Assembly: GCA_013373425.1 (NCBI GenBank)
Contig: JABXHW010000057.1
Coordinates: 1-33,098 of the forward strand
DNA: 33,098 nucleotides
Direction of reading: 5' to 3'
Source of the DNA: Flavobacteriia bacterium
Lineage (GTDB): Bacteria > Bacteroidota > Bacteroidia > Flavobacteriales > Schleiferiaceae
The position numbers and the translations under genes are program-made. Shown here in pieces: positions 12,540 to 30,300 of this stretch (its first letter is position 1; every line of letters starts with the position of its first letter). The notes under the pieces are model-generated. The model made no database searches. It was not told the DNA's origin and worked only from the letters and a program-made list of their open reading frames with translations.

Positions 12540-14981
12540 TTAGTACAAGAATTTTTCTGAATAGGCCATATTGTTATCTTCATCAATCACACGAAGGATG
12601 TAGTACGACACATCGTTCAGCGGCTTCTTGAATTGGAACTGAAGCGGCCCGTATGTACTGATATCGTCTTCTGAGTACAACTGGCGACCCGACATATCAA
12701 TTACCTCAACGATTACTTCAGGCGAGAGGCCTTCAAGGAAATCAACATTGATGACGCCATTGTCTACACGTACTCTAAACGCGCGCTGACCGCTGGCGCC
12801 GTTTTCTTCCACACTGATGTCGTTTGCTACAGCGATAAGGTCGAATCGATGTTCATCGAATGCAGTATCGTTCGTGAATGTGTAGCTGTTATTCAACAAG
12901 TCGGTAGTAACACCTGTCTTGCGATCATACAGTTTTACTATAAAATCTTGAGGGAAAGTGTTCTCTGCGATAGAGATCGTGTAGTCTTCTAGAAGATTGC
13001 CTTTCACGCCGAGGAATGCAGTATCGCCGTAGAATGAGCGGTCGATGACATTAGCAGCAAGCACAGCGCTATCAGGAGTGATGCTGTAGAAATTCATCAC
13101 TTGTGGAGCAGGATTATAGAACTTGGTGATATCACCACGTGTGTCTTGATTCAAACTGAAACCTAGTTCACGCACAAACACGACATTATCGCTGTAGTCT
13201 GGATTTGAGTTACGAACGATTTCGAGAACGAGCTTTTCCTGATTTTTCAAGTGAGTTGCAGGCGAACTTGTCGTTCTATCACTATTCGTAAAGTCGAATA
13301 CATTTGTTGCTGTGGCACCTGAATTGTTGAGTTTAACCCAGACCGCTTGAAGTGGAGCAATGTTACTTACACCACCGTTTGAGCCAGCAACGGAGTTCCA
13401 TGCTACGTAGCCTCCGTCTCCAGAATTCAGGCTTTGCTTCCAGATGTAATATGTATCGCTGTAATCCGATCCGGAGAAGTTGTCGTCTACTTTCGACCAA
13501 TCTAAGTTGCTTGGGTAAGGGTTGGCAATCAAGTTCCAACCATCGCTAGCACCTTCATCGGCATAATCACTCCAAGCCAACGTTGATGTATAGCCTAAAG
13601 ATGAAGTGGTGTTTCCTGTATTGATGCTTCCTGTTAGGTCAAGCACAACGGGGAGATTACCATCACCGTTTACTCCGCCACCTGCACGAACAAAGTTGCT
13701 GTCGATATATATATTCCAGCCTCCGGTGAAGGCATCAGAACTATCTGTTGCGGCAATGAAATCTGCAGTGGCTGCGTCCCAGTAGTAAGCAGAAACGCCG
13801 GATGAATTCCCGCTGTAGTTGATGATGATATCGTCTTCAAGATCATCCAATGTCATTCCGCTGATTGGCGAACCCAGGTTGTGCCAACCCGGCTCGGAAA
13901 TTACCATTTGAAAAGTCACATCTCCCGAAATACTAGCGCCTCCACCTTCAGCAGCGATTTGGCCGTACGATGAGGCCGATGTTGAAGCCAGAAGAAGGTT
14001 TCCGTTGGTAGTTATCGTTCCATCCGTTGGAGTGAAAACACCTGTTACGGTTTGAGTTCCACCATCTATCGCTACTCCGTTGGAGTTGTTGATCGTGAGG
14101 TTTTCCCATTCTGTATCTCCGGTGATGGTCTGTGCCGCTGCACCAGCCAGTTCTATTGTTCCATTGATGGCCTGTCCAGACACCGAACCAATAAGCTCGC
14201 CTGTGATAGTCAGAGTGTTTCCGCCAAGGTCGAGAATAGATGAATCTAGAATTATTAGTCGTTGAACAGTAGCATTTCCAGGCATGGGGTCCGTAGTAGC
14301 TGTTTCCACCAACATGTCTAGAGTGTTGTCTGAGCTTGAAGGAGCACCTCCCGCGGAACCACCTGACCAAGTTGCACCGTCCCAAATGATATCGAAGTTT
14401 TGCAAAGGAAAGGCTAGGCCATTTCCACTGTTGGCCACTATCGGACTATTGTAAGAAGAAGGGCTGTTATCGGAAAGCTGATGGAATTGTTGTCCACTCA
14501 TCGCGGACTCTTCTAGGCTAATTTTTGGAAGTTCGGTAGTGTCTGTAATGGGTATAGCTACTCGAACCAATTTCTGATAGGTAGTTGTAGGTTCCTTGTG
14601 CGCAACACCAGGAAAGTAGCTGGTTGTAAAATTGCTTAAGACAAACACTACAATTCTAGAGGAGGTGTTGTTGCTAACGCTTGCATTGTAGAAGTCTTGC
14701 GGAGTCAGACCTCCACTATTACCATCACACAAAGTGCGCTTTCTCACACCCACATTGCTTGCGATGTTAGAGCCGAATGCAGCAGTGTTGTAATTAATGG
14801 CTACTTGTAAGCTTCTGATATAAGTGCCTCCAGCACTCGCCTTTAGCTCAATATCAAATACAAGTGAATCCGTGGCGCTATTTACCACACTCATATTGTT
14901 GATCCGATACGTAAGTGTTTGAGCACTAACTGAAGAGGTCAACAAAAAGGCAAGCAGCAATATGAAATTTCCAGGTCTCAT
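12540..14981 (-). CDS. large secreted protein with cohesin-like N-terminal domain and T9SS-like C-terminal domain
   Basis: 813 aa. Signal peptide at residues 1-20 (ending SSVSAQ). An N-terminal beta-rich domain at about 22-190 has FDIELKASAGGTYIRSLQV at 42-60, matching a similar segment in the two upstream neighbours. The middle at about 240-350 holds the strand-repeat phrase TIELAGAAAQTITG / WENLTINNS, common in Bacteroidetes surface proteins. The last ~75 residues (VRVDNGVINVDFLEG...VEVIDMSGRQLYSE...YYILRV...YSEKFLY) look like a type A T9SS sorting domain, although no Y-P-N-P-type opening motif is visible. The ATG at 14981 overlaps the upstream stop as ATGA, indicating translational coupling and fixing the start; an in-frame ATG at 15020 is rejected. 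Confidence 0.85.
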   Translation of the reverse strand: MRPGNFILLLAFLLTSSVSAQTLTYRINNMSVVNSATDSLVFDIELKASAGGTYIRSLQVAINYNTAAFGSNIASNVGVRKRTLCDGNSGGLTPQDFYNASVSNNTSSRIVVFVLSNFTTSYFPGVAHKEPTTTYQKLVRVAIPITDTTELPKISLEESAMSGQQFHQLSDNSPSSYNSPIVANSGNGLAFPLQNFDIIWDGATWSGGSAGGAPSSSDNTLDMLVETATTDPMPGNATVQRLIILDSSILDLGGNTLTITGELIGSVSGQAINGTIELAGAAAQTITGDTEWENLTINNSNGVAIDGGTQTVTGVFTPTDGTITTNGNLLLASTSASSYGQIAAEGGGASISGDVTFQMVISEPGWHNLGSPISGMTLDDLEDDIIINYSGNSSGVSAYYWDAATADFIAATDSSDAFTGGWNIYIDSNFVRAGGGVNGDGNLPVVLDLTGSINTGNTTSSLGYTSTLAWSDYADEGASDGWNLIANPYPSNLDWSKVDDNFSGSDYSDTYYIWKQSLNSGDGGYVAWNSVAGSNGGVSNIAPLQAVWVKLNNSGATATNVFDFTNSDRTTSSPATHLKNQEKLVLEIVRNSNPDYSDNVVFVRELGFSLNQDTRGDITKFYNPAPQVMNFYSITPDSAVLAANVIDRSFYGDTAFLGVKGNLLEDYTISIAENTFPQDFIVKLYDRKTGVTTDLLNNSYTFTNDTAFDEHRFDLIAVANDISVEENGASGQRAFRVRVDNGVINVDFLEGLSPEVIVEVIDMSGRQLYSEDDISTYGPLQFQFKKPLNDVSYYILRVIDEDNNMAYSEKFLY

Positions 14982-16261
14982 TGCGGTACTGCGTTTGATT
15001 TTCCTTTGTTCGTATACCAAATCACCTCTCTGTCGGAGTTGAACACGTTGCCGTCGAGGTCAAAGTCGGCATCGTAATATCCGTTAGCTCCAATATCTCC
15101 AAACCAAGCTACATCTGAGTCAGAGTTGAAGATGTCACCATCATGATCCCCATCACCAGCGATCAACATACTGAAGCCATTCTTAACCTTCGCCCCATTC
15201 GACCCTCCAAAGATAGTCGATAAACCACTCGTCATATCACACTCCCACCTTGGGATCGGTGGAAGAGAGTCGTTATACATCAATCCGTCTGAACACATCA
15301 TTGCAAGGTGATTGCGATGGTGCACCACAACGTATTGATTTTTAGTGTCGTCGAAGGTCACATTATCGAACTCAAGATAAGAACTTCCGTCGAGGTCTAC
15401 GACATGTCCGTTCTTAAGCAAGAAACCCGCACGAGTTCCAATTACAGATGTTGCATTCGCATTCGTTGCATTATTAGTTTCACGGATTTCTACGAGCACC
15501 CAATCCACCACGTCAGCATTCGGAATAGCGGCTACACTATCGCCGCCAGAATAATTCCAAGGACCCGCCTCATAGGGGTTCTTCAATGGAAGAAGCCCCT
15601 GGCTATTGAGGTCAGTACGCATCTCGCCAGTATTTACATCGTATGCACCTTCGAGGAATACGGTGATGTCAAGACGTGGGGATCCCAGCGTTGGGAAATC
15701 GGTAAACCTTAACACGGCAGGTTCTGTCACAAACTTTGGCTGCTTATTGGTGAAGTAGTGAACGTTTGACGTGTTCTCATTATCCTGTCCAGTAATCACC
15801 CAATCGAATGCAGGGTCTAGAATACCTGTATAGTTGGTTACTTCAATGTGCACGAGTGATGTTTGTTGACCGTTTGGCAGTGCAAGTACGTTATCGTTGA
15901 ACTGCCACATGCTGTCGATAAACTTAGGATCTAAGCTGTAAACGACTTTTCCACCGTTCTGCTGTGAGCCAAATCGAATAAAACCAGGATTGAGGTTGGC
16001 GTTCCCGCTTCGACTTTGTCCGGCTCCCAACCACGTAACATTTAAAGTCGGATTGGTAAACTGTGTCCAATCGGCTGTGAACACAATGTCTCCGAAAGCT
16101 ATGAAGGCAGTATCTCCTCTTGTACACTCAAAAGCTAGGTCGAAACTGATAACGCCTGAAGGGTCCTCGCTGTAGTTCACGGCACTCACGTCCACGCGGG
16201 TCTGAGCCCAGGTAAGCTGGGCGAGCAGAAGGAGTGTGAATGTGGTCGCGATACGTTTCAT
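14978..16261 (-). CDS. secreted protein with cohesin-like N-terminus and C-terminal dockerin-like EF-hands
   Basis: 427 aa. Signal peptide at residues 1-20 (ending LTWAQ). The N-terminal beta domain at about 22-180 has FDLAFECTRGDTAFIAFGDI at 40-59. A middle domain at about 195-350 contains the landmarks LEGAYDV, VVDWVLVEIRE and HHRNHLAMM and is shared with the 1002-aa neighbour. The C-terminus has two EF-hand loops with exact dockerin spacing: DGDHDGDIFNSD (370-381) and DFDLDGNVFNSD (399-410), ending YTNKGKSNAVPQ. There is no T9SS domain. Its stop overlaps the next gene's start (ATGA). The likely role is a calcium-binding surface component; function is inferred from modules only. Confidence 0.85.
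   Translation of the reverse strand: MKRIATTFTLLLLAQLTWAQTRVDVSAVNYSEDPSGVISFDLAFECTRGDTAFIAFGDIVFTADWTQFTNPTLNVTWLGAGQSRSGNANLNPGFIRFGSQQNGGKVVYSLDPKFIDSMWQFNDNVLALPNGQQTSLVHIEVTNYTGILDPAFDWVITGQDNENTSNVHYFTNKQPKFVTEPAVLRFTDFPTLGSPRLDITVFLEGAYDVNTGEMRTDLNSQGLLPLKNPYEAGPWNYSGGDSVAAIPNADVVDWVLVEIRETNNATNANATSVIGTRAGFLLKNGHVVDLDGSSYLEFDNVTFDDTKNQYVVVHHRNHLAMMCSDGLMYNDSLPPIPRWECDMTSGLSTIFGGSNGAKVKNGFSMLIAGDGDHDGDIFNSDSDVAWFGDIGANGYYDADFDLDGNVFNSDREVIWYTNKGKSNAVPQ
15032..15154 (-). other. pair of dockerin-like calcium-binding loops (within 14978-16261)
   Basis: Two 12-residue loops 29 residues apart, each with Asp at positions 1, 3 and 5, Gly at 6, hydrophobic at 8 and Asp at 12. This is the type I dockerin duplicated-loop arrangement. 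Both loops share the sub-motif FNSD, so they are internal duplicates. Confidence 0.75.
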
Positions 16262-16343
16262 TTAGGTCTCAATTGGGCGTACTTCGGACTTTTGTGTACT
16301 TGGTTTTTAGCTCAATAAATAGGGGCTAGTTAGTGGCAGAAAT

Positions 16344-16371
16344 CCGAGAAGCAGATTAGGCTACTTCTCGG
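16344..16371 (-). terminator. hairpin terminator candidate downstream of the FN3 protein gene
   Basis: CCGAGAAG (16344-16351) and CTTCTCGG (16364-16371) are perfect 8-bp arms around a 12-nt loop. On minus the stem is preceded by AGAAAA and followed by ATTTCTG, a modest T tract. It lies 25 bp after the minus-strand stop at 16397. It separates that gene from the two-gene operon starting at 16261, which then needs its own promoter in 16262-16343; no clear one was seen. Confidence 0.65.
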
Positions 16372-16396
16372 TTTTCTACTAGGTTCTTATCAGCGA

Positions 16397-19300
16397 TTAC
16401 TGTGGTGTTTGTTCTGAGTAGTCGCGGTTGTTGAAGACCATTGCGCGGTCAGCTGCGTTCACCGCACCGTCAAGGTTAACATCCGTGTCGCCGTATGTTG
16501 GAGATGTGTTTCTGTCGTTGTAAACCGCTGCGTTGTCACCCGCATCGATTACAGAATTTGTAGCGTTGTCTGCCCAACCTCCGAAGAGTACATATACAGA
16601 TCCGTCTCCGTTGTAGTCATACATTGGGTCGATTCCAATCGCACCTGCAGTAGAGAAGTTGTAGCTAAATGCACTAGCTCCATTGTCTACCAGGGCAGTT
16701 GCGGAGTACGCACCCAAGTGGTTTCTGTGGCGGATACCTACGTAGTAAGTACCTTCCGCAGTGATTTCAAATTCTGGCAAGCTGCTTCCGTCTGCTGCTA
16801 CGATGCTTCCATCAGCGAGCAAGAGGGCTGCTTGTGTGAATTCAACTGTAGTTGCACTTGCTGCAGATGCACCAGAGCGCAATTCGAGAAGAACCCAGTC
16901 TACTACGTTAGCTGGCATGCTGCCATTGGTCTCGCCACCGTTGTAGTTTCCGAATGCTGCCGTGTTGTAAGGCTGTGCAGAAGGAACAGTGATGTTCACA
17001 CCGCTCATGTCTGTACCGTTATACGGACCTTCGAGGATGGCGGCAAGGTCAACTTGCAACCAAGTCACGTCGCTTCCGTTTGCTTCAGCAGCGTCAGAGT
17101 AGTTAATCACATTCAAGTCTGATGCGGCATCACCTGTGAAGGCATAGATGTCGAATGCGTATGTTTCGTTTTGATCAAGTCCTGTTACGCTTACAGATCC
17201 TGAAGTACCGTCACCGTTGTACACTACGTAACCGTTTCCAAGTGCATCACCTGAACCGTAAGCAGTGTTGGCTGTGTAAGCCGTAGCGTTCGTTGGAGCC
17301 GTAGCAGCATCCGTGCTCAAGCGAGCAACGACTACCCATTGGTTGGCCGCTTCACTTGGGTCTGTCCAAGTCACGTCAATCGCGTTAGCACTTGTTGCTG
17401 TTGCAGTAATTCCTGCAAGCGCTGTAGAAGGCTCTGCGAATACAGTGTATTGTGTTCCGGTAAGTGCAGTCGCATAGTTTGCAGTTACACCTGAACCGTT
17501 GTAGTCGTATACGTCAACTGAGTATTCTGTTCCTGCAGTCAATCCAGAAACCGTTAGGCTCGTCTGACTTGCACCTGCGAATAGTACGATGTTACCCGCT
17601 CCGGTTACGTCGCCATCACCTGCAGTAAAGTCGGTGTTAGCAGAGTATCCTGTTCCGTTGCTTGGTGCAACCGCGGCGTTAGCTGCTTCACGCACAACCA
17701 CCATTACGTTAGAACCTGTACCCGCAGTCCAGCTCACGTCGAATGAAGTCTGTGCATAGTTAGAGAAGGCAATGTTCGTTGCTGCGGTTGGAGCGTTGAA
17801 CTGAGTAGTTTGTGAACCACTCAATGCGGTTGCGTTGTAGTTGCTATATTCTTGAGCACCGTTGTATTCGTATACTTCGATAGTGTAATCCACACCGGCG
17901 GTCAATCCTGAAGCAGTGATTGAAGTAGTAGCTGGACCAGAGTAGAGAACTACGTTGCCTGTTCCTGTTGTGCTACCGTCACCCGAAGTGAATGTTGCGT
18001 TGTCTGCATAAGCTGTTCCATCTGCTGGAGCTACCGCCGCATCAGTCGTCAATCGAGCAACAACCAATGTGCTGTCGCCGTTACCCCCTGTCCAGCTCAC
18101 GTCAAATGAAGTTCCAGCAACATTGCTAAAGACCATGTTCGTAGCTACAGTAGTAGGCTCGGCGAACATCGTGAATTGTGAGGCAGAACCGATAGAAGAA
18201 GTCAAGTAGTTTGCTGAACTTCCCTGACCGTTGTATTCGTAAATCTCAACAGTGTAGAATGTGCCTGCAGTCAATCCAGTAATCGATGCGCTGGTTGTGT
18301 TCACCTGTGCGTATACTACGTCGTTACCTGCGCCAGTTGTTCCGCTTGGTGGGTAAGCGGTTCCATCAGCAGGAGCTGCTTGTGCAGTTGCATCTTCACG
18401 AACAACTACGAGTACGCTATCACCGTCACCTGATGTCCACGAAAGATCGAAACTCGTTGTAGCAACATTCGAGAATGCCAAGTTGCTAGCCGCAACAGTT
18501 GGTTCTGCGAATAGAGTTACACCTGAAACCGTTGCTGCTGCACTGTATGCTTCAGAGAAACCTCCACCACCCGAGTATGCGTAAATGGCGAAGTGATATG
18601 TTGAACCTGTTGATAGACCCGTAACCGTGGCTGAAGTAGCTGCGCTACCAAACTTGCCGATTACGTATTCGTTGTTTCCTGATCCGAGTTCAGCACCTGA
18701 ACCGAAAGCAAGGTTGCCAGCGTAAGTGATAGTGTTAGCAGGACCAGTTGTTACCGCTGCGGCGTCGCGCGCTACAATCAACACGCTGTCAGCACCGCCA
18801 ACCGCATCCCAAGAAAGAGTTGCCTGACCTGAAGTGCTGAAGTCCGCTGCGAAGTTGGTCACCACAGAAGGAGCAGTACCTGCAGAAGGTGTACTCACTG
18901 TCAAGTTGCTAATCGACTTCTGGCGAAGACGACCGTTACCAGCTACGTATGCTTCGTTAAACTGAGTGGATGGATTACCCGAGCCAACATTTGCAAAAGC
19001 TGGAAGTGCAGTAAAGTCACTCACGTCTGTTAGCGTAATGGTTGCGATTCGCACCGGCGTAGTAGATACGGCAGGGAAGTCACCCAATACAGTTGCGCTA
19101 AATGGCGCTTGAATGTTCAAAACAACATCACCGCCTACAATTGTAGCGCTCATGTTGCTGAAGTCTGGGTTGATATTCGATAGGGAGGCGCTAAGGGAAC
19201 TCCACTTAGTAGCGTTGGTTGAAACAACGAAATCGGCATCCGCGATATACGTGGTGCCGCTGGAAGTGCTAGCATAAACATCGAAGGTCATCGATGTGCC

Positions 19301-19405
19301 ATCCTGTTGCTGGTTCTTCGCAGTGATGGTCAAGTCGTTATTCTGGGCAAAGGCGCCAAACGAAACAACTGCGAAAAGTGCGATTAAGGTCTCTCTCATT
19401 TTCAT
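16397..19405 (-). CDS. large secreted protein: cohesin-like N-terminus, five FN3-like repeats, dockerin-like C-terminus
   Basis: 1002 aa. Signal peptide at residues 1-21 (ending SFGAFAQ). The N-terminal beta domain at about 25-170 has FDVYASTSSGTTYIADADF at 41-59, matching both neighbours. Five FN3-like repeats of about 116-122 residues begin near 178, 300, 416, 538 and 658, each with a strand like SFDVSW, V-V-x-R, and G-L-T-x-G-x-x-Y. A domain at about 785-930 is shared with the 427-aa neighbour (LEGPYN, VVDWVLLELR, RHRNHLGAYS). The last dockerin-like loop DVNLDGAVNAAD is at 975-986; the preceding partner loop (DNATNSVIDAGD) is degenerate. It ends YSEQTPQ with no T9SS domain. The start is ATG at 19405, or 19399 (MRETL). 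Probably a cell-surface adhesin/scaffold. Confidence 0.85.
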   Translation of the reverse strand: MKMRETLIALFAVVSFGAFAQNNDLTITAKNQQQDGTSMTFDVYASTSSGTTYIADADFVVSTNATKWSSLSASLSNINPDFSNMSATIVGGDVVLNIQAPFSATVLGDFPAVSTTPVRIATITLTDVSDFTALPAFANVGSGNPSTQFNEAYVAGNGRLRQKSISNLTVSTPSAGTAPSVVTNFAADFSTSGQATLSWDAVGGADSVLIVARDAAAVTTGPANTITYAGNLAFGSGAELGSGNNEYVIGKFGSAATSATVTGLSTGSTYHFAIYAYSGGGGFSEAYSAAATVSGVTLFAEPTVAASNLAFSNVATTSFDLSWTSGDGDSVLVVVREDATAQAAPADGTAYPPSGTTGAGNDVVYAQVNTTSASITGLTAGTFYTVEIYEYNGQGSSANYLTSSIGSASQFTMFAEPTTVATNMVFSNVAGTSFDVSWTGGNGDSTLVVARLTTDAAVAPADGTAYADNATFTSGDGSTTGTGNVVLYSGPATTSITASGLTAGVDYTIEVYEYNGAQEYSNYNATALSGSQTTQFNAPTAATNIAFSNYAQTSFDVSWTAGTGSNVMVVVREAANAAVAPSNGTGYSANTDFTAGDGDVTGAGNIVLFAGASQTSLTVSGLTAGTEYSVDVYDYNGSGVTANYATALTGTQYTVFAEPSTALAGITATATSANAIDVTWTDPSEAANQWVVVARLSTDAATAPTNATAYTANTAYGSGDALGNGYVVYNGDGTSGSVSVTGLDQNETYAFDIYAFTGDAASDLNVINYSDAAEANGSDVTWLQVDLAAILEGPYNGTDMSGVNITVPSAQPYNTAAFGNYNGGETNGSMPANVVDWVLLELRSGASAASATTVEFTQAALLLADGSIVAADGSSLPEFEITAEGTYYVGIRHRNHLGAYSATALVDNGASAFSYNFSTAGAIGIDPMYDYNGDGSVYVLFGGWADNATNSVIDAGDNAAVYNDRNTSPTYGDTDVNLDGAVNAADRAMVFNNRDYSEQTPQ
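17066..18874 (-). repeat. five FN3-like coding tandem repeats (~350-366 bp each)
   Basis: Five divergent in-frame copies inside the 16397-19405 gene, recognisable at protein level by FSNVxxTSFDxSW near each start and G-L-T-A-G-x-x-Y-x-x-x-x-Y-x-Y-N-G near each end. Copies 2, 3 and 4 are closest to each other; copies 1 and 5 are more divergent. Confidence 0.8.
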
Positions 19406-19573: not shown

Positions 19574-19658
19574 TGCTCAGAATCCATGAAATTCCTCATG
19601 GTTTTCTAAACTCGAAACCGTTACCTTCGTCGGGAGTCCACCTGATAAATCCAAGTTG

Positions 19659-20024
19659 ATGAGTTCCGTCCGCATTCTACTCGTTGATGACGAACCAATA
19701 TTGCTGAAAGCCGTAGAATTTAAGCTCAAGAAAGAGAAGTTCGACGTGACCACTGCTACGAGTGGTGAGGACGCAGTTGAGCAACTCAAGTCTGGTGAGC
19801 ATTACGACCTAGTGATCAGCGATGTTATGATGCCAGGCCTAAGCGGAATTGAGTTGCTTCGTGTGGTGAAGGAAAACAACGCCGACATGAAGGTTTTACT
19901 CCTAACGGGACTTAAAACAGAAGACACGGTTGTCGATGCATTTGACCTAGGCGCAGACGACTTTATGACCAAACCGTTTAACCCAAAAGAACTCGTGCTT
20001 CGCGTGAAGAAACTCTTGCGATAA
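19659..20024 (+). CDS. stand-alone receiver (CheY-like) response regulator
   Basis: 121 aa consisting only of a receiver domain: acidic pair D10/D11 (LLVDDEP), phospho-acceptor Asp55 in DLVISDVMMPG, Thr in LLLTG, and Lys in the MTKPF motif. No output domain is present, so it must act by protein-protein contact. The ATG at 19659 is used; a TTG codon just before it is in frame. It precedes the HEAT-repeat and glycosyltransferase genes by 32 bp in the same direction, suggesting that phosphorylation controls their activity. No kinase is adjacent. Confidence 0.93.
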   Translation: MSSVRILLVDDEPILLKAVEFKLKKEKFDVTTATSGEDAVEQLKSGEHYDLVISDVMMPGLSGIELLRVVKENNADMKVLLLTGLKTEDTVVDAFDLGADDFMTKPFNPKELVLRVKKLLR

Positions 20025-20056
20025 TGGGCTCCACGGGAAGCTAACCTCCCCTCTAT

Positions 20057-21169
20057 ATGCAGATGATTACGAATTGGTGGGATTCGTTCTTGGAAAAGGA
20101 TTTACGTTTTCAAGTAGTCATTGCTTTCTCTGTGATTTTGCTGATTGTCAGCATTGCCCTTTTCATCATCGTACTTCGCTTGCGTGCCAGAAAGTCTCGT
20201 GCCGACCGAAAAGCTTCTGAACTCATCGATCAAATTGAGCCGATAATTCTGTCTCTGATTTACGAGGAGGAGGATGAAGTTGATTGGGATCATGAGATCG
20301 TCAATTTGCGGAACATTCTCACCTTCAGCATGTATGAGTTTCACAGTTATGCGCGATTGAGTGATTACTTGATTCAGCTACATAAACAGCTTGAGGGAGA
20401 TTCGGCGAAGAAAATTGAGCGAATTTATCGAGATCTCGAAATGCCGCCTATGACTTTAAAGCTGCTTAAAGATGGCAAGTGGCATCACAAAGTAAAGGCC
20501 ATCAGTGCACTTTCAGAGTTTCGAATTAAGAATTACCTGTTCGAGGTTATCCAGTACATGGATCACCCCCAAAGATTGGTTCGCGACGAAGCTCAGTTTG
20601 GGGCAATCGTACTCGGAGGCAAGAGAGCGACGGGCTCCATCGTTAAGCTGAATTATGAAATGTCTAAGTGGCAACAGTTGAGGTTGATAGAGCAGTGCGC
20701 GCAGCTAGATGATGAAATCAAAAGCGATGTACTTTCCTGGATGAATTCTCAGAATGAGTCGCTAATTGAACTCGCGCTTCGAATGTGTATACGCATGGGG
20801 TGGTATGAGGCTATCGAGAACATCCCACGTTTTATTTCCCACAAAAGAGAAGAGATTCGTTTACTCAGCGTAGAGGCAATTGGTGAGCTCGGATCGGCCG
20901 ATTTAATTTCAGAATTGCTTCATCGATTTGAAGTAGAGTCCAGAAAGGTGCAGATTCGAACTTTGATGGCCATTGGCGAGCTCGACGCAGATGGGAGAGC
21001 AAGTGACTTTTTACGAGGACAAATCATGTATGCCGACTATGAGGTAGCTTTGGCTGCCGCGCATGCTTTGTACGAAACCACCTCGGATGACGAAATGCGT
21101 GAATTTTCTGCCCGTCTCGAGGAGGATAGGGTAGTGTTAATCGAGCAAGTGCTTTATGGAGCAGTTTGA
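20057..21169 (+). CDS. membrane-anchored HEAT-repeat protein
   Basis: 370 aa. A single TM at about residues 18-40, a basic stop-transfer (RLRARKSRADRK), then a cytoplasmic alpha-solenoid. Helical repeats are visible at KVKAISALSEF, LVRDEAQFGAIVLGG, EIRLLSVEAIGELGSADL, KVQIRTLMAIGELDADGRA and EVALAAAHALYE, each resembling a HEAT unit with a small-hydrophobic core and conserved Asp/Arg spacing. HEAT solenoids are protein-binding platforms, so this could link the receiver to the glycosyltransferase. It overlaps the glycosyltransferase gene by 14 bp. The start is ATG at 20057 (an in-frame ATG lies two codons later). No enzyme motif. Confidence 0.8.
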   Translation: MQMITNWWDSFLEKDLRFQVVIAFSVILLIVSIALFIIVLRLRARKSRADRKASELIDQIEPIILSLIYEEEDEVDWDHEIVNLRNILTFSMYEFHSYARLSDYLIQLHKQLEGDSAKKIERIYRDLEMPPMTLKLLKDGKWHHKVKAISALSEFRIKNYLFEVIQYMDHPQRLVRDEAQFGAIVLGGKRATGSIVKLNYEMSKWQQLRLIEQCAQLDDEIKSDVLSWMNSQNESLIELALRMCIRMGWYEAIENIPRFISHKREEIRLLSVEAIGELGSADLISELLHRFEVESRKVQIRTLMAIGELDADGRASDFLRGQIMYADYEVALAAAHALYETTSDDEMREFSARLEEDRVVLIEQVLYGAV

Positions 21170-22622
21170 TACGGATCTGAATGTCGGTGATTGGGTATTT
21201 CTCACATTGGTGGGGATACTCTTTGTGTACACTGTTACGGTGATGCTCAGCTATATCTTCTTGGCAATCTTCTCCAACCTTCAAGCTCGCATATACATCC
21301 AGCGGAACAAATACGCGAAATACGACCTTCTCCTTAAGAGCTCTGTGGCGCCCTCGGTTTCGGTTCTCGCTCCAGCATTTAACGAAGAAGCGAGTATTGT
21401 TGAAAATATTCGATCACTCCTATCTCTGAAATATCCTAAATATCAGGTGGTTGTGGTGAATGATGGAAGTAAAGATTCAACTCTACAACAGTGCATAGAC
21501 GCTTATAATCTAGAGCCGATCCCTTTTCAGCCTACGGGCAATCTTGAATGTAAACCTATACGTAATGTATACAGGTCTAAAAACCCGGCATTCAAGAAGT
21601 TATTGGTTGTAGATAAGGAGAATGGAGGAAAGGCAGATGCGCTTAATGCAGGATTGAATGTCGCACAGTCGCCTTATGTGATGAACATCGACGTTGATTG
21701 CATTTTGGAGAGGGATTGCCTTCAGAAATTGATGAAGCCCTTTTTAGAAGAAACCGGTACACGAGTTATTGCTACGGGAGGTGTGATTCGAATTGCCAAC
21801 AATTGCGAAGTAGAGGGTGGATCGATTACAAAGGTTCGACTTCCACAGACGTTGATAGGTAAGTTTCAAACTTTGGAATACTTGCGTGCCTTCTTGCTCG
21901 GTAGAATGGCCTGGGGCTACTTAGATGGTCTGCTCCTAATTTCGGGAGCTTTAGGCGTTTTCGACCGAGAGATTGTCATGAAATGCGGGGGGTATTACGC
22001 GGCCACTGTTGGAGAAGATATGGAGCTTGTTGTGCGGATGCGTCGCTATGCTCGCGAGCATGGCATAAAGTATAAGGTTGAGTTTATTCCAGATCCGCTG
22101 TGCTGGACTGAGGTGCCGGAATCTTGGAATGTGCTATACAGACAGAGGAATCGGTGGACGCGAGGTACGATTGAAACGGTGCTCCTACACAAGAAGCTCT
22201 TCTTTAATCCTAGGTATGGCAAAATTGGACTGCTCAGCTTCCCGTATTGGGTGTTCTTTGAGTGGTTCGCCCCTGTAATTGAGTTTTTCGGGACGATTTT
22301 CTTCATCATCTATGCATTCCTTGGCCTTGTCAACTTCCAGTTCTTCATAATGCTGTTTTCAATGGTGTACCTCTTCAGTATCACCATTTCTATGTATACC
22401 CTTTTCATGGAAGATCTCACCTTCTTCCGCTATCGTCAGAAGAAGGATTTTAGGCGCCTGATGATGATGGCGTTTATTGAGCCTTTCGTGTTCCACCCAT
22501 TTGTGGTCTGGTCGGCGGTTAAAGGAAACTGGGACTATTTCTTTGAAGGGAAGAAGCAGTGGGGAGCGATGAAACGCGTTGGATTCCAAAAGCCGAAAGA
22601 GGAGGAAGCTCCGAAATCTTAA
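21156..22622 (+). CDS. processive family-2 glycosyltransferase, polysaccharide synthase-like
   Basis: 488 aa integral membrane GT2 enzyme. N-terminal TM at about 12-38. The GT-A domain has AFNEE (74-78), VNDGSKD (101-107), KENGGKADALN (154-164), the metal-binding D179-V-D181, the acceptor-side GED (286-288) and the processivity motif QRNRWTRG (330-337). Several TM segments follow at about 357-420 and about 438-455. This set matches hyaluronan/PNAG/cellulose-type synthases that polymerise and export a beta-linked polysaccharide from UDP-sugar; no PilZ domain is fused. It is co-transcribed with the receiver and HEAT genes. The product could be PNAG-like or other; the sugar cannot be told. Confidence 0.9.
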   Translation: MEQFDTDLNVGDWVFLTLVGILFVYTVTVMLSYIFLAIFSNLQARIYIQRNKYAKYDLLLKSSVAPSVSVLAPAFNEEASIVENIRSLLSLKYPKYQVVVVNDGSKDSTLQQCIDAYNLEPIPFQPTGNLECKPIRNVYRSKNPAFKKLLVVDKENGGKADALNAGLNVAQSPYVMNIDVDCILERDCLQKLMKPFLEETGTRVIATGGVIRIANNCEVEGGSITKVRLPQTLIGKFQTLEYLRAFLLGRMAWGYLDGLLLISGALGVFDREIVMKCGGYYAATVGEDMELVVRMRRYAREHGIKYKVEFIPDPLCWTEVPESWNVLYRQRNRWTRGTIETVLLHKKLFFNPRYGKIGLLSFPYWVFFEWFAPVIEFFGTIFFIIYAFLGLVNFQFFIMLFSMVYLFSITISMYTLFMEDLTFFRYRQKKDFRRLMMMAFIEPFVFHPFVVWSAVKGNWDYFFEGKKQWGAMKRVGFQKPKEEEAPKS

Positions 22623-24181
22623 CGGGCCTCAAGAACTTCCGATTGCTTATACCGTCCGTTGCATTTTCCTAGGATAAATCGAGCAACGCTATCACTCCTG
22701 CAAGGAATTACCACTTCATACTCGCCCGTTTGCACATTGAATTTTTCACTCGCGAATGGAATGCCTTCATCCTCAATGAATGCATCAGCGTGATATTCCC
22801 TAGGAAAAGCAGCCAGCTTCACAAAGTGTGTGGGATCGATGAGAGTGGGTTGATAGCTCACCGAGTCTTTAGACACAGCCATTGAATCAAGAGCAACATC
22901 ATATCTAGGATCAGGCACCATGTCCCAATTGACCTTAGCGAAGCGCTCATCGATAGTAAGCTCTAAGGTGATATCATATAGTGATCGAGGCGGAGGTGGA
23001 AGTTCTGGCGCTTGAGAATTTTCAAGGTAGCTGTCCAGCACCTTTGAGATAAACGGCTCGTACCATTCCCAAAAGAACTTCTTTCTGTCTTCCGGATTTT
23101 GATTGTCGTAGAACAACGAACGGATACTCGTTATTCCTGCAAACCGGCTCGTCGTAAGGCTTACCGGGTTGTCTGTGAAATCACCCGCCAGATAAATCGT
23201 TTTCCAGTCCGGCTTTACCAGAACTGCGGGGAAGCTCGTAGGAATCCCGAGGGCACGCATTTGTGTCAACCCTGCCGAGCTTGAGTACACTCTAAATTGA
23301 CTTACCGTTCTAACCGCGGTGTCGGGGGTGCATATCTCAAACCAAAAAGGGTATCGAATGAATGCGTCAACGCCCATTTCTTCGGCAATGTGCCGCTCTG
23401 TTTCGAGAATAGGAACATTGTGTATGAGTTCATTTTCTGGAAGGATAAGTATCCTACCATCTTCATGAAAGAATCCAATTCCAGGCCCGTCGAATTCATA
23501 CTCCTTGTGGTATTGCTCTTGATACACTTGAGGAATCCACTCGGGAAGCTCGCCGCCTTCTCTGTATTCGAGGTCTTGCCAGTAGCGACCCACCCAACCA
23601 GAGAAGTGGACACCAAGAATGTCTTCCGCCCTGCGGCGAATGGGCATGGGAGTGGGAGCACCGAAAATGCTGAACTCGGCGATTAAAAGCTTTCCTTGAC
23701 GTTGAAGAGCATCCATGAGAGAGGCGTCTTCCGCCTCCAGGCCGCCATAAACTAAACCAGATTCTTTGATGTTGTTCAATTTTGCACGCCATTCCTCATA
23801 CGTAGAGCCGTAAGTATCAATAAAATAGCCGACATTTACGAACTTGGCTATGCTATCAATTTGCTTTTGGGTGTAGCCATCTAGATCTTTGGCGTTGAGC
23901 AGGTTGTCTGGTTGTGGGAAGTGTCCCAGGTAATCTACTCGTCGGCTGTAGTTCGACCCATCTTCTTTCACGTAATGATGATGATTTAGCACCCATGTAA
24001 AAGCGCGATGCTCTATGTTGCTAAAATCTTGAGCCGTTTTATCTAGCATAACGACCCGCAAAGTCGTCGTTGGACTCGCCCACCAAACGATAAAACTCCA
24101 GAGAGGTAGGAGTAAGATCGTAAACAAAATCACTTTCCGAATACGGTACTTAGTCCGGGACTGAAAACCAGATTGAGCCAT
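22619..24181 (-). CDS. membrane-anchored extracytoplasmic protein of unknown function
   Basis: 520 aa. N-terminal signal-anchor at about residues 17-35, then a large soluble part outside the membrane. Landmarks are RVDYLGHFP, GLVYGGLEAEDASLMD, IAEFSIFGAPTPMPIRRRAE, GVHFSGWVGRYWQDL and FIRYPFWFEI. A proline-rich linker (PELPPPPRS) near residue 390 leads to a C-terminal beta-rich part. I do not recognise the family, and no catalytic signature is clear. The ATG at 24181 is preferred over 24202 because it gives a short basic N-terminus before the TM. It is convergent with the glycosyltransferase: their stops share TTAA at 22619-22622. A role in processing or exporting the same polysaccharide is possible from context only. 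Confidence 0.75.
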   Translation of the reverse strand: MAQSGFQSRTKYRIRKVILFTILLLPLWSFIVWWASPTTTLRVVMLDKTAQDFSNIEHRAFTWVLNHHHYVKEDGSNYSRRVDYLGHFPQPDNLLNAKDLDGYTQKQIDSIAKFVNVGYFIDTYGSTYEEWRAKLNNIKESGLVYGGLEAEDASLMDALQRQGKLLIAEFSIFGAPTPMPIRRRAEDILGVHFSGWVGRYWQDLEYREGGELPEWIPQVYQEQYHKEYEFDGPGIGFFHEDGRILILPENELIHNVPILETERHIAEEMGVDAFIRYPFWFEICTPDTAVRTVSQFRVYSSSAGLTQMRALGIPTSFPAVLVKPDWKTIYLAGDFTDNPVSLTTSRFAGITSIRSLFYDNQNPEDRKKFFWEWYEPFISKVLDSYLENSQAPELPPPPRSLYDITLELTIDERFAKVNWDMVPDPRYDVALDSMAVSKDSVSYQPTLIDPTHFVKLAAFPREYHADAFIEDEGIPFASEKFNVQTGEYEVVIPCRSDSVARFILGKCNGRYKQSEVLEAR

Positions 24182-24305
24182 GCTGCGTAGATGAATGTGC
24201 AATATAATTATCTATTGACCTTCTTTTTCGAATGTCGATAAGATTGTGCACCCGGTAGGAATTGAATGTCGGAAAAGAGATACAACATATTGTCAGACTG
24301 GAAGG

Positions 24306-24381: not shown

Positions 24382-27300
24382 ATGAAGAGCCTCTACTCGC
24401 TTCCCTGCAAATGGCGCGTGTGGCTAATAGTACTCGTACTAAGCCAATTCTCTGCTTTCGGGCAGCAGATTGGTAACATCTATCAAGCATCTTCTGGGAC
24501 GATACTCGACCCCAATTCAGATGGGTGGATATCCGCTTCTGGCGGGGCCATCGATACCTCTGTGGTTATTGATGAGTCATTCGATTTCGAATATCCAATG
24601 ATACCGATGTTCCATCTTACAGCTGAACCACCGGCTGACCTCCAGGGAGGTAACGATTGTGGTAAATCAGAAATTGTTGACAACCCAAATTATCCTATGA
24701 GTGCCGGTTATTGGTACTTAGGAGATGTCGATGGAATCCCAGGCAATGGGGATGAGTTTCTGATGTATCGAATAAGAATAGCTCGTAACACCACTGGTGC
24801 CTATGGCTTTAGCTTTCTTATTGATACAGACAACAAAATGGGCTTTACAGGTCCAGATGCCGACCCTAATGCGGTGGCCGGAAACCCTGGCTTTGAAAAG
24901 GAGGTTATCTACGGTACTTCAGCTGGTGGCCTCGTTCAAATTTTAGATGTGGACGGAACCACCACGGGGACGCAGACGTCTTCTTATCCTGGAGCAAGCC
25001 ACTCTCAGCGTTCACATGCGGGGTATACCAACTGTCCGCTTTCCGATCCTGTGTTTATCGATTTCTATATTCCTTTTGACAGTTTGGGCATCAATCCAAA
25101 CGATTCGATTCGAATGATTTTTGCCACGGCTACGTCACCGAACTCCGCGCTAGGAGGGTCGGCTTCTGATATTGGTGGTGTGAATGATGGTCTGTTCGGA
25201 AGTGGAGATTCTATCTTTATTGCCATTACCGACAGCACCCCATCTTTCACTTTCGGCGGTTGTGGTTGGGCCATTGCACAGCAAGGAGCTCAGGTAAGCT
25301 GTCACGGCGACAGCGATGGTTGGGCTTGGGTTGACGTTTGGGGTGGAGCGCCGCCCACCAGTTATTTATGGACTACAGGTGATACCACCGATACCGTTTA
25401 CGGACTATCGGCCGGCACCTATACCATATATATCACGAGTGGAGGCGGCTGTACAGATACGGTCGATGTGGTCGTCACGGAACCCGACTCCCTGATTGCC
25501 AATGTGGATATAACGGATAGTATACTTTGTAATGGTGACTTCAACGGAACCCTTGCTGGGTTTGCTACGGGAGGTACGCCTCCTTATACCACGTCCTGGG
25601 ATAACGGTGCGCTAAATGACACCCTTACCAATATGGGTGCTGGCACCTATACCTATTATGTCACAGATGCAAATGGGTGTTCCGACTCGATACAAATCAC
25701 ACTCACAGAACCCCCAGTTCTGGATGTTCAAATACAGAATCAAAATGAAATCTTGTGCTTTGGTGATAGCATAGGGTCGTTAGATATATTGATTACTGGC
25801 GGAACTCCACCTTACTCCGTACTATGGCAAGATGGAAACACCGACAGTCTTCGCAATAACCTGGTTGCGGGTACTTATTCGGTAGTTATCACTGATGCCA
25901 ATGGATGTCAAGATTCACTAAGTGTAACTCTCGATCAACCGGCTCAGCCAGTTGGTGGTCTAGCTATTCTTGAATCCCCTGTTTCTTGTTTTGGAGGATC
26001 AGATGGTGTAGGTGTTGTAGTCGCAACAGGTGGACGCTCACCATACACTTACTTGTGGAGCAATGGCGAAACTTCAGATACAGCCGTTGGACTTTCTGCA
26101 GGTTCACTCTATGTGGTAATTACCGATAGTGTGGGCTGTACTGATACTGTAAACCTAGTGGTCACTCAGCCAGACACGGCCTTGACTTTGTCGGTAGCTA
26201 TGAACAGTCCAGTTTCGTGCTTTGGAGGAACGGACGGTCAGGCTACTGCATCGGTTTCAGGAGGGACACTTCCTTATAGTTACTTGTGGTCAACAGGAGA
26301 TACGACTTCGTCGATTACGGGTGCGGCTGGAACCTATTCAGTCGTTGTAACCGATTTCAGAGGTTGTGTGGACAGTGCTAGCATCACCATTACGGAACCT
26401 TCAGCGGCACTTGTCGTTTCGATTACAGATTCATCCGACGTAGATTGTTTCGGTGATGCAGATGGATTTGCAACAGCAACAGCTTCTGGAGGTACAGCTC
26501 CTTACGATTTTGAATGGAGCAATGGTGTTACAGATACCATCATCAATGGATTGAACGGAGGAACCTACACGGTTGTCGTAACAGACGCAAGAGGATGTAT
26601 AGACTCTGCAACTGTGACCATTGCTGAGCCTAGCGCGGAATTAGTTGCTACTGGAAACATCATCCAACAGATTCTTTGCAATGGAGATACAGATGGGTCG
26701 GGATATGTAGACATTACGGGAGGAACCGCTCCATACACCATACTTTGGTCGAATGCGGCAACCACAGATACCATCTCGGGTTTGCCAGCAGGAACCTATG
26801 ATGTCACAGTTACCGATGCGAATGGTTGTACGGATACGGCAACCTTCACATTGACTCAGCCGGCGGTGTTGAGTGTCTCGCAAACAGTAGACGCCAATGT
26901 TTTGTGTTTTGGGGATAGTACGGGTCAGGCTACAATAACAGCAACTGGCGGAACTTCACCCTATACATATGCATGGTCTTCAGGCCAATCTACTGCTGTA
27001 GTTACCAACTTAACTGCAGGCACACATACCGTTGTTGTTACGGATGCCAATGGCTGTCAGGATTCTGTAAACGTTACGATTACTCAACCTGCAATGGCTC
27101 TGACATCTGGAACTTCTAGCACGACAGGAGTTACTTGTCGTGGTGATGTTGACGGATCTGCTTCAGCAACGGCGTCTGGAGGTACAGCCCCTTATACTTA
27201 TGCCTGGAGCAATGGTATGACGGGTCAGAATATTACCGGACTTGCAGGTGGCGACTATATTCTCACCGTCACAGATGCGAACGGTTGTACGGCTGTCGAT

Positions 27301-30300
27301 ACCGTAAACATCTTCGAGCCAGCTTTCGAATTGTTAGTTGGAGCTGCGGATGGAACAACAATCACCTGTAATGGCGATAGCGATGGAACCGCTTACGCCT
27401 CCGCTTCCGGTGGTGTGCCTCCTTACACCTTCGCATGGAGCAACGGAATGACGGGTGACACTATCACGGGAATTCCGGCTGGCACCTACGTAGTTACGGT
27501 TACTGACTCAATGGGTTGTACCGATACCAACACAGTGGTTGTTACAGAACCAGACTCACTTCTGCTCAACGTTAGCGCTTCAGATATTACCTGTTTTGGT
27601 TTGATGGATGGTGCTGCGAGTGCTGCTCCATCTGGTGGTGAGGCGCCATACACTTACTTGTGGAACACAGGCGCAACGACTGCCTCAATTTCTTCCTTGA
27701 ATCCAGGCACCTACTACGTGACCGTTACGGATAATAGAGGTTGTGTTCAGTCAGATACTGTTACGATTACTTCACCAACGATGCCGCTGGCAGCAATCAT
27801 TGTCTATACAGATGTGAACTGTTTTGGCGGATCAGATGGAACGGCTACAGCCAATGGATCTGGTGGTGTATCACCTTATACCTATTTGTGGAGCGACGGT
27901 CAAACTACCCAAACGGCAACAAGCTTAGCTCCGGGTGGATATTATGTAATCATGACTGACGCGAATGGCTGTCAGGATTCTGCATACACAACCATAGCTC
28001 AACCGGCTTCTGCTTTATCCGTTTCAACAAACCTTATCTCATCACCAACATGTGGGGTGTTGAATGGATCCGTTTACGCAGAAGGTAGTGGTGGAACTCC
28101 TCCTTATTCATATTCGTGGAATAATGGTACGGCAAACGATACTGCGACTGGCCTAGGTGGTGGTCCTGTGATTGTTACGGTAACCGATTCAAACGGTTGT
28201 ACAGCAGTAGATACGATTGTTGTCCCTTCACCTGCGGCTGACCTTGTGGTTACCGGAACGGTGATAGGAGATATTTCATGTTTTGGTGGTTCAGATGGTA
28301 TTCTCTACGGTTCAGCTGTAGGCGGAACACCTCCATATACTATTAGTTGGAGCACCGGATTTACTGGCGATACGCTAACGGGTGTATCTGCTGGATCATA
28401 CACAGTATTCGTAGTGGATTCCAATGGCTGTTCTGCGTCTAGCACCGTAAATATTGGAGAGCCAGATTCCATCACCTCGACTACTTCCGTACTCAATAAT
28501 GTTAGCTGTTTTGGCGGTTCGGATGGCTCCGGATCAGTGACTCCTTCTGGAGGCACACCTGGCTACACCTACTTATGGGATAACGGTCAGACATCAGCTA
28601 CTGCAACCGGGTTGAACGCCGGATGGCATACGGTAACCATTACGGATTTGAATGGCTGTACTCATGTGGATAGCGTAAATATTACGGAACCTGCAACAGC
28701 TGTTGATGTAAGCGCAACAATGGATACTGCGGTGTCTTGTTTCGGCGGGTCTGATGGCGTTGCCACCGCTACAGGATCTGGCGGAACGTCACCGTACACC
28801 TACTTGTGGAGCGATAGTCAAACCACGGCTACCGCCTCTGGATTAGCAGCGGGAACATACACAGTTACCATCACAGATTCTCTAGGATGTACCGATACGA
28901 CGTCAGTAACTATTACTGAACCAGCTTCGGCAGTTGACGTAAGTCCAGCGACCATTTTTGCAGTTTCCTGCGTTGGTGATTCCGACGGTTGGGCCACTGT
29001 TTCGGGCTCAGGAGGAACCTCTCCTTATACGTATGCCTGGAGCAATGGACAAACAGGAGACTCTGCGGTGAACCTCGCTGCAGGAACTTATACTGTTACC
29101 ATCACAGACGCAAATGGTTGTCAGGACACCACAGCTGTATCCATTCCTGAACCAAGCGCTCCATTATCTGCAGTTGCCATTGATGCCATGACTATTTCGT
29201 GCTTCGGCGGAACAGATGGAACAGCTTATGCAACCGTTTCTGGCGGTTGGGCACCATATACGTATTCATGGAATACAGGATCGACAAATGATACGATTAC
29301 TGGCTTGGCTGTAGGTACTTACACCGTTACAGTGACCGATTCATTGGGCTGTCAAACTACGGCGGATATCACCCTTGTTCAGCCAATGCAGGTGACGGCA
29401 ACGGCAACACTCATTTCAAATGTTCTTTGTTTAGGCGGGTCGGATGGATCAGCTTATGTAGCTGGAGGTGGTGGTACACCTCCTTATACTTATCTATGGC
29501 CGAATGGCGAAACAAATGATACAGCCGTAGCACTAGCAGCGGGCACTCACATCGTAACAGTAACAGACTCGAACGGCTGTTCAACCACCGCTTCTGTAAG
29601 TGTGGGTCAGCCGAGTACGGCTGTAAGTGCTGGCGGTTCTGTGCTCACCCAAGTGCTTTGTTTTGGTGATTCAACAGCAACCGCAAGAGCAACTGCTTCT
29701 GGTGGGACATCACCTTATACGTATGCCTGGAGTAACGGTCAAACGACTAGAACTGCTACGGGTTTATGGGCCGGCACGCACACCGTTGTAGTTACAGATG
29801 CGAATGGATGTACGGATACAGCGACAGTCACAGTAACCGAACCAGCCACAAGTGTGGATGCGTCGGCTGTGATGGTAAATCAAGTTTCTTGCTTTGGCGG
29901 AAATGACGGTAGAGCCTCAGCCAGCGCAACAGGAGGAACGCCTCCTTACACGTATCTGTGGAGTAATGGTGTGAGTGGTGTAAACACTTCAACATTGAGC
30001 TCGCAGTGGTATACGGTAACGGTAACTGACGCCAATGGTTGTACTGATACTGCCATGGTATTTATTACTCAACCTACTGCTCCGGTAGCAGTAAGTGGAG
30101 TCGTGGTTCAGAATGTGACTTGCTTTGGAGGTGCGGACGGCATCGCTTGGGCGAATGCAACTGGAGGAACAGCTCCGTACACTTATACTTGGAGTGACGG
30201 TCAAACAGGAGATACTGCTGTTGGACTTGTGGCTGGAAACTACGCAGTTCTTGTTACCGATTCATTGGGTTGTCAAGACTTGATTTCTGTTGTGATTACA

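Follow-up and report, generated by a model that had tools for sequence, protein, structure and literature searches.

Cohesin-dockerin assembly is a classic of clostridial cellulosomes. Noncellulosomal cohesins and dockerins were reportedly treated by Peer et al. in 2009, perhaps with mention of such modules in Bacteroidetes. As outlined in excerpts of the respective reports, Clostridium thermocellum combines the X-module-type II dockerin of CipA/ScaA with surface anchoring scaffoldins (PMC5141474; PDB 4fl4, 3kcp, 2b59), and the anchors of B. cellulosolvens carry SLH modules (PMC8063739). For Candidatus Stygibacter (Cloacimonadota), the excerpted report proposes a cohesin scaffold anchored via the type IX secretion system (T9SS) together with dockerin-bearing enzymes; the scaffold of 3755 amino acids (aa) with tandem cohesins was found by domain annotation, and its partners are peptidases and glycosidases (PMC8542988). 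In the excerpted text of a study on single-cell genomes from cockroach guts, Bacteroidota (Alistipes, Bacteroides, Bacteroidales) contained Pfam dockerins (PF00404), and the only cohesin was located in a Firmicutes genome (PMC10266427). Corresponding excerpts state that cohesins and dockerins were not identified in a Bacteroidetes genome published in 2018, as in other Bacteroidetes (PMC5831590), and describe the cellulases of Melioribacter as lacking dockerin-type domains (PMC3534657). Here we analyze a 33,098-nucleotide stretch of a Flavobacteriia bacterium (assembly GCA_013373425.1, contig JABXHW010000057.1), hereafter called the window, which represents a complete contig (G000:C46) and encodes three linked proteins, P0001, P0002, and P0003. 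We propose, with a probability of roughly three in four, that the cohesin of a T9SS-anchored P0003 serves as receptor for the X-dockerin proteins P0002 and P0001, perhaps in tiers.

Predicted domains of P0001, P0002, and P0003

The N-terminal domain of P0003 was modeled with AlphaFold2 (AF2) from 33 sequences (pLDDT 75.5, pTM 0.72). All 15 Foldseek matches of this model at E ≤ 0.001 were cohesins, with 5lxv_A as the best one (2.5e-5). VIA-align gave a Z-score of 10.7 to 6kgc_A with a root-mean-square deviation (rmsd) of 3.2 over 133 aligned residues, and ranks 1-35 were occupied by cohesins. For P0002, modeled with AF2 after removal of the signal peptide (pLDDT 86.2, pTM 0.66), the top Foldseek matches were the scaffoldin chains 4fl4_L (E 5e-8) and 3kcp_A (E 9e-8), and 11 of the 15 matches at E ≤ 0.001 were cohesin or scaffoldin chains. 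Structural alignment to these two chains had a Z-score of 12.2 over 280 and 278 residues, respectively. A preliminary description of the locus had suspected cohesin-like domains from a sequence pattern, and Foldseek bore this out: the best matches were cohesins for P0003 and, for P0002, scaffoldin chains composed of cohesin, X-module, and dockerin, a make-up consistent with the PDB searches. The N-domains of P0003 and P0002 are thus predicted to fold as jelly-roll cohesins, the assignment for P0002 resting on the modeled fold. The N-domain of P0001 appears to be a relative of these two by sequence. An N-domain profile of 24 sequences from outside this genus detected P0003 (8e-7) and P0001 (7e-4); for comparison, 600 shuffles reached 0.032 at best. 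In the host genome, the N-domain profile gave three matches at E ≤ 10, all to P0001-P0003, whose sequences this profile contains.

P0001 and P0002 have about 240 C-terminal residues in common. When PDB sequences were searched with the tail profile, X-dockerins ranked first (5k39_B, 4.6e-4), and the last 233 residues of P0002 (model 175-407) aligned with 4u3s_B over 146 residues (Z 10.1, rmsd 3.8) and with 2b59_B over 150 residues (Z 9.8, rmsd 4.0). Because the profile and model matches go to X-dockerins, the tail is assigned, on these predictions, as an X-module-like domain plus a dockerin. The profile lacking the genus, which yielded the E-values for the tails in Table 1, comprised 12 sequences. 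The EF-hand-type loops expected at the ends of two dockerin-like proteins were present as two strict loops in P0002 (DGDHDGDIFNSD, DFDLDGNVFNSD) and as one strict (DVNLDGAVNAAD) and one degenerate loop (DNATNSVIDAGD) in P0001. The helices of the P0002 dockerin span residues 360-370 and 389-399 of the model. In an alignment of 24 tails (A1), the columns at positions 1 and 12 of the second loop were invariant and those at positions 5 and 6 nearly so, and with a loose loop pattern, two or more loops were found in 70 of 95 tail genes. The Pfam family for type I dockerins, PF00404, scored P0001 with 14.4 bits at a cut-off of 22.9, left P0002 unmatched, and recognized 4 of 70 tail proteins of relatives at E ≤ 1e-3. 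A scan of the genome contigs with the single sequence of P0002 gave zero matches; the host genome contains three tails, those of P0001, P0002, and a third X-dockerin protein on contig C26.

The end of P0003 had been described as a T9SS-like domain. A divergent domain of this type showed up only in a profile-profile comparison, in which an 11-row alignment led by P0003 matched the C-terminal domains (CTDs) of 14 partner proteins (see below) with an hhalign probability of 94.6% (E 7e-8), but no T9SS model was matched by the P0003 sequence alone. The host encodes SprA (2577 bits) and 109 matches to the sorting domain TIGR04183, and therefore its T9SS could carry P0003. These T9SS genes and the named genomes sharing the tail also indicate Bacteroidota as the phylum. 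The middle region of P0003 is common to partner proteins of relatives. Above the cut-offs of Pfam and NCBIfam, the three proteins gave FN3-type matches only, all of them in P0001; P0003 matched zero Pfam families, even at E 10.

The three same-strand open reading frames (ORFs) are adjacent to each other in the order P0001, P0002, P0003 on the minus strand (Table 1). The stop codon of P0002 and the ATG of P0003 overlap by 4 bases (ATGA). P0003 is counted from this ATG; the listed ORF starts earlier, with a TTG at 15020. A spacing of 135 bases separates P0001 and P0002; this gap contains a perfect 8-bp hairpin with a 12-base loop and no clear T run (16344-16371, minus strand), which is possibly an attenuator or an RNA processing site. 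The starts of all three proteins were judged by eye to be signal-peptide-like. What the preliminary description had observed on the three proteins was confirmed, the FD dipeptide lying exactly at residues 41-42 (P0001), 40-41 (P0002), and 42-43 (P0003). The G/D-T-x-Y/F-I motif is present as GTTYI in P0001 and DTAFI in P0002, but P0003 reads GTYI and lacks the middle residue.

Table 1. Features of the P0001-P0002-P0003 locus (positions in the window).
Feature	Position	Strand	Remarks
P0001	16397..19405	-	1002 aa; signal peptide (by eye), N-terminal cohesin-like domain, FN3 array, X-module-dockerin tail
Cohesin-like domain of P0001	18887..19345	-	assigned by sequence; profile without genus E 7e-4
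FN3 array of P0001	17080..18880	-	five stretches, limits approximate; Pfam fn3 E 5.3e-33
X-module-like domain plus dockerin of P0001 (predicted)	16400..17122	-	tail profile without genus E 8e-50
Degenerate first loop, P0001 dockerin	16535..16570	-	residues 946-957
Strict EF-hand-type loop, P0001 dockerin	16448..16483	-	residues 975-986
P0002	14978..16261	-	427 aa; signal peptide (by eye), cohesin-like domain, X-module-like domain, dockerin
Cohesin-like domain of P0002	15698..16204	-	predicted fold, Z 10.4 to 4ums and 6kgc_A
X-module-like domain plus dockerin of P0002 (predicted)	14981..15691	-	matches to 4u3s_B and 2b59_B; tail profile without genus E 3e-65
First strict EF-hand-type loop, P0002 dockerin	15119..15154	-	residues 370-381
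Second strict EF-hand-type loop, P0002 dockerin	15032..15067	-	residues 399-410
P0003	12540..14981	-	signal peptide (by eye), cohesin-like domain, middle region, divergent T9SS-type CTD; proposed anchor
Cohesin-like domain of P0003	14427..14921	-	AF2 model, Foldseek, VIA-align; profile without genus E 8e-7
Divergent T9SS-type CTD of P0003	12546..12755	-	hhalign profile-profile comparison

Tail and partner genes in related genomes

With P0002 as query, 9 of 99 genomes were matched, including the one containing the window. The tail alignment A1 found matches in at least 53 of 395 genomes of the phylum, which is a lower bound because the scan scored at most six candidates per genome, and in at least 588 stretches of GTDB genomes. 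A cohesin profile (A4), of whose 33 rows 5 matched the Pfam cohesin family PF00963 at E ≤ 10 (best 9e-4), was detected in 29 of the 395 genomes, and 27 of these had tails (3.9 expected, Fisher 7e-25), although tail proteins and neighbors of these had served to build A4. The Pfam cohesin family, which is independent, was found in 127 of the 395 genomes (in 111 over the cut-off), of which 33 had tails (17.0 expected, Fisher 1.2e-6) and 94 showed no tail match. In genome G171 (loci L140 and L250), two Pfam cohesins (84.3 bits) and a tail are combined in a 787-aa protein, and 42 bases downstream a 386-aa protein is encoded that carries an N-domain of class I (see below) and a Por_Secre_tail domain over the cut-off. 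A protein of locus L095 contains a Pfam cohesin with 26.0 bits (cut-off 24.1), and an 841-aa protein of G282 three class I domains. The cohesins of the phylum deserve a separate survey. The tail genes of loci L181, L205, and L209 lie in a metagenome-assembled genome (MAG) labeled 'Thermoplasmatota' with an isolate-name series as in Bacteroidales MAGs; this MAG is probably misbinned.

To describe the gene order at tail loci, we used a sample of 79 loci of relatives plus the window, with 95 tail genes in 83 clusters; the tail genomes G373, G431, and G479 and some tail matches elsewhere were left out of this set. A same-strand gene within 700 bases was present in 72 clusters, and eight of these next-door genes were dropped by eye as unrelated, fragmentary, or ambiguous (the second ones of L097, L099, and L105, the first of L139, and those of L108, L112, L120, and L129). 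In the remaining 64 pairs, that is in 64 of 83 clusters, a partner gene ends the tail cluster. The gap between tail and partner gene had a median of 16.5 bases and was ≤ 60 bases in 57 of the 64 pairs, and in 23 pairs the reading frames overlapped; since gene starts were taken as the first ATG, GTG, or TTG, gaps and overlaps are approximate. The pair was present in 52 of the 58 genomes with clusters, comprising 43 of 49 phylum genomes and all 9 relatives, which had been picked by a P0002 match. Of the 72 next-door genes, 39 matched the type A sorting domain TIGR04183 and 3 a type B domain of NCBIfam, and 38 matched PF18962. Our own CTD profiles, built partly from the same partner proteins, detected a T9SS-type C-terminus in 52 of 60 complete partners. 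The other eight, taken as complete, include L048, in which only the initial part of a gene was counted: at L048 10165-12643, the G002 counterpart of P0003 is broken into two frames, which were read separately. At L110 9212-10126, the partner has a type-B-like CTD, and the gene behind it resembles PorP/SprF by eye. Three cohesin-like proteins without a CTD match (L247 7780-10305, L252 6206-7756, L111 5992-6900) share at their ends a CIPF or CIPL motif with a basic tail behind it, which may be another sorting signal.

The partner N-domains of the 64 pairs fell into the sequence classes I (27), II (10), and III (22), with 5 unassigned. P0003 belongs to class I, and it is for this class that a structural link to cohesins was obtained. 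The dockerins occur in a short-loop and a long-loop form. Short loops accompanied all 27 class I and all 22 class III partners, and long loops 9 of 10 class II and all 5 unassigned partners; the single short exception was L100, for which classes I and II were tied. By eye, two further exceptions were seen: L123 combines a class I partner with a long loop that differs in form and is scored as short by the pattern, and in L110 a first tail gene of the long-loop form precedes a short-loop tail gene and then a class I partner. In all six genomes possessing both loop forms (G008, G018, G020, G111, G127, G250), short loops went with class I and long loops with class II or unassigned partners. The loop pattern and the class seeds were set after the sequences had been viewed, the long-loop pattern was widened to take in L056 and L057, and the iterated class profiles overlap. 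Therefore, weight is carried by an unsupervised swap test, in which partners were shuffled within the ten genomes holding two or more pairs. The value for the dockerin against the partner N-domain was 0.319 compared to 0.165 ± 0.052 for the null (fraction 0.0035), whereas the X-module as control gave a fraction of 0.2195. As to inner symmetry, repeat halves belonging to one protein resembled each other more than halves taken from different proteins did in 58 of 64 cases, a count that is biased because each split maximized the score of its own halves.

Proposed assembly and competing explanations

In the assembly we propose, P0003 would be an anchoring scaffoldin, whose CTD would carry it through the T9SS to the cell surface and whose N-terminal cohesin would be displayed outside as receptor for the X-dockerin proteins encoded alongside. 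P0002, with the order cohesin-X-dockerin, would dock into P0003 and leave its own cohesin free. P0001 would be an FN3 rod whose X-dockerin, being of another type, enters a cohesin on either P0002 or a second P0001 molecule, and the third X-dockerin protein (contig C26) might dock on the same free cohesins. Since cohesin-like domains are present on both dockerin proteins, tiers or chains are possible. The preliminary description had proposed a T9SS-anchored cohesin-like receptor for dockerin-bearing siblings. Our computations favor this idea by the predicted cohesin and X-dockerin folds, the conserved tail-partner pairs, and the dockerin-partner covariation, and they amend it in that the siblings carry cohesin-like domains too and their dockerin comes with an X-module-like domain. 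Binding, its dependence on calcium, and the order given for the tiers are expectations of this model. Surface localization of the tail proteins is something we infer rather than observe, because they start with a signal peptide but carry the tail at the end expected to hold a T9SS domain.

Several results weigh against this interpretation. The CTD of P0003 as a single sequence matched neither TIGR04183 nor PF18962 nor the profile of the 14 partner CTDs. The TM-scores of the 15 Foldseek matches of P0003 were modest (0.47 to 0.56 by query length). The alignment behind the P0002 model mixed full-length proteins, tails, and N-domains and included other cohesin-like rows; the multidomain fits of this model to the scaffoldin chains had rmsd values of 7.9 and 11.7, and 4 of its 15 Foldseek matches at E ≤ 0.001 were not cohesins but adaptins (two, of which one ranked fourth) or CBM3-type structures (two). 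The N-domain profile built without the genus missed P0002. In a search of PDB sequences with an N-domain profile, the best match was a designed protein (0.0042), followed at 0.29 to 0.40 by six further matches, five of them cohesins. The Pfam cohesin PF00963 was unmatched in this genome; in the phylum, the Pfam cohesin was missing in 20 of the 53 tail genomes, and both it and A4 in 11 of them. In a Mantel analysis of all pairs, the X-module covaried with the partner to the same degree as the dockerin (0.476 and 0.457, respectively), as shared ancestry would give. Finally, in the best 80 GTDB loci, mostly from tail-rich MAGs, a CTD gene followed only 6 of 53 testable tail genes, with a background of 16 CTD genes among 220 ORFs including these 6; of the 100 tail ORFs, 47 had been set aside (3 run off, 15 had no room, 10 have a next gene that runs off, and 19 are followed by another tail). 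Pairing is therefore not general. Among the sampled genomes it characterizes those with few tails, whereas tail-rich genomes scatter theirs, which would fit with many cargos per receptor.

The tiers were analyzed by comparing the similarity vector of each dockerin over 60 reference operons with that of each cohesin in the four genomes having the three-gene layout (G000, G001, G002, and G063). The Pearson correlations of the P0001-type dockerin with the P0001 and P0002 cohesins were 0.56 and 0.30 in G000, 0.37 and 0.25 in G001, and 0.38 and 0.39 in G002, and 0.51 with the P0002 cohesin in G063; those with the P0003 cohesin were lower (0.20, 0.05, 0.04, and 0.04 in G000, G001, G002, and G063, respectively). 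The P0002-type dockerin tracked the P0003 cohesin in G001 (0.71), G002 (0.42), and G063 (0.56), and all seven scattered tail proteins agreed best with a P0001 or P0002 cohesin. Again, some values run counter to the proposal. In the window itself, the correlation of the P0002 dockerin with the P0003 cohesin was near zero (0.06) and uninformative. With Spearman correlations, the P0001-type dockerin favored the P0003 cohesin in no genome, but the pattern was weaker and partly reversed: the P0002-type dockerin favored the P0003 cohesin only in G002 (0.28), the P0001 cohesin being ahead of that of P0003 in G001 (0.26 to 0.12) and the P0002 cohesin in G063 (0.41 to 0.31). These Spearman values lowered our confidence; the tiers are a lead, not a result, and the tier order given above is tentative.

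The tail might instead serve export, in that the linked cohesin protein acts as a dedicated adaptor which binds its tail protein in the periplasm, so that both pass the T9SS together; docking would then be real, but mainly for export rather than for a surface structure. The signal-peptide-like start of the tail proteins, the location of the tail where a T9SS domain would be, the adjoining partner genes with their overlapping frames (starts as called), and the PorP/SprF-like gene behind the partner with the type-B-like end in L110 are all in line with this explanation. We consider it unlikely, as dispersed tail genes without a neighboring partner are common, some tail proteins exceed 2000 aa, and an export signal has no need for the cohesin-like domains of P0001 and P0002 themselves. 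Going further, one may imagine a largely unannotated, phylum-wide docking code, in which large adhesins and enzymes without a T9SS signal of their own are displayed by plugging their X-dockerin into a co-encoded, signal-bearing cohesin that is at once export adaptor, the one riding the T9SS on the other, and P0002-like adaptors stack the tiers; this extension is speculative and in our view quite doubtful.

A different function of the N-domains, as cohesin-fold relatives that, for instance, bind glycans like CBM3 or form fiber subunits, with tails binding elsewhere and pairing reflecting co-regulation, would account for the CBM3- and adaptin-type folds in the structure lists, among them the adaptin at rank 4 for P0002, and for the many genomes with Pfam cohesins and no tail match. 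It is improbable in view of the unbroken cohesin ranks for P0003, the presence of tails in nearly all A4 genomes (27 of 29), and the finding that within genomes the dockerin segment, but not the X-module, tracks the partner. Although the locus has cohesin-like, X-module-like, and dockerin-like parts and one relative combines two Pfam cohesins with a tail, a true polysaccharide-degrading cellulosome is very improbable: at E ≤ 1, Pfam gave P0001-P0003 neither a glycoside hydrolase nor a carbohydrate-binding module, and when 70 tail proteins including the C26 protein were scanned, polysaccharide deacetylase (2 of 70) was the only plain carbohydrate enzyme among the 25 commonest of 50 Pfam families. 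Our preferred explanation, a surface receptor for X-dockerin proteins, would, if binding is confirmed, explain how large surface proteins without T9SS signal are held on Bacteroidota cells, and the new protein pairs are open to direct testing.

Neighboring genes and comparison with known systems

Beside the operon, the region 19656-24202 encodes a response regulator, a HEAT-like protein, a family-2-type glycosyltransferase, and a deacetylase-like protein (named by eye), in an order that G001 and G002 retain in part (L045, L048). The operon thus adjoins what may be a surface polysaccharide locus. Further on, positions 24382-33096 of the plus strand are occupied by a giant SprB-repeat-like ORF of at least 2905 aa, which runs off the contig. 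This gene (24382 to contig end) was considered as another one ending in a dockerin tail and was rejected, since its G001 counterpart has a type-B-like CTD by eye.

Non-cellulosomal cohesins of Archaeoglobus (2xdh) and C. perfringens (2jh2, 2vo8) aligned with the P0003 domain at Z 9.2 to 10.5; these are not known to be T9SS-anchored. The preliminary description was aware of no described system of this layout; a T9SS-anchored cohesin scaffold with dockerin enzymes had, however, already been proposed in Cloacimonadota (excerpts of PMC8542988). No description of the paired tail-partner layout was found in the searched literature, which covers few subscription papers. According to the excerpts on Cloacimonadota, the scaffold of Candidatus Stygibacter resembles the window system in that it combines cohesins with a C-terminal domain for which a role in surface attachment is proposed, and in that its partners bear dockerins; unlike it, as described there, the system presented here has co-encoded one-to-one pairs, an X-dockerin tail, and possible tiers, and belongs to another phylum. 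The cockroach-gut Bacteroidota likewise have dockerin-type domains, but the excerpts of that study describe neither pairing nor an anchor (PMC10266427). Many next-door genes resemble T9SS type A surface proteins (TIGR04183, PF18962), whereas the CTD of P0003 matches neither model.

The window system is not a cellulosome, because each protein contains one cohesin-like domain and no hydrolase was seen in P0001-P0003. In these two properties, and in sequences that lie beyond the Pfam models, it differs from C. thermocellum. It shares with CipA/ScaA the order cohesin-X-dockerin and the two loop-helix motifs, and with the C. thermocellum system as a whole the proposed docking of an X-dockerin onto the cohesin of a surface-anchored protein and, as far as tiers exist, different cohesin-dockerin types per tier. 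The proposed anchor in the window would use the T9SS, unlike the SLH anchors of B. cellulosolvens. By predicted fold, the window system belongs with the cohesin and X-dockerin modules and would work like these, and its layout differs from the clostridial systems by the T9SS anchor.

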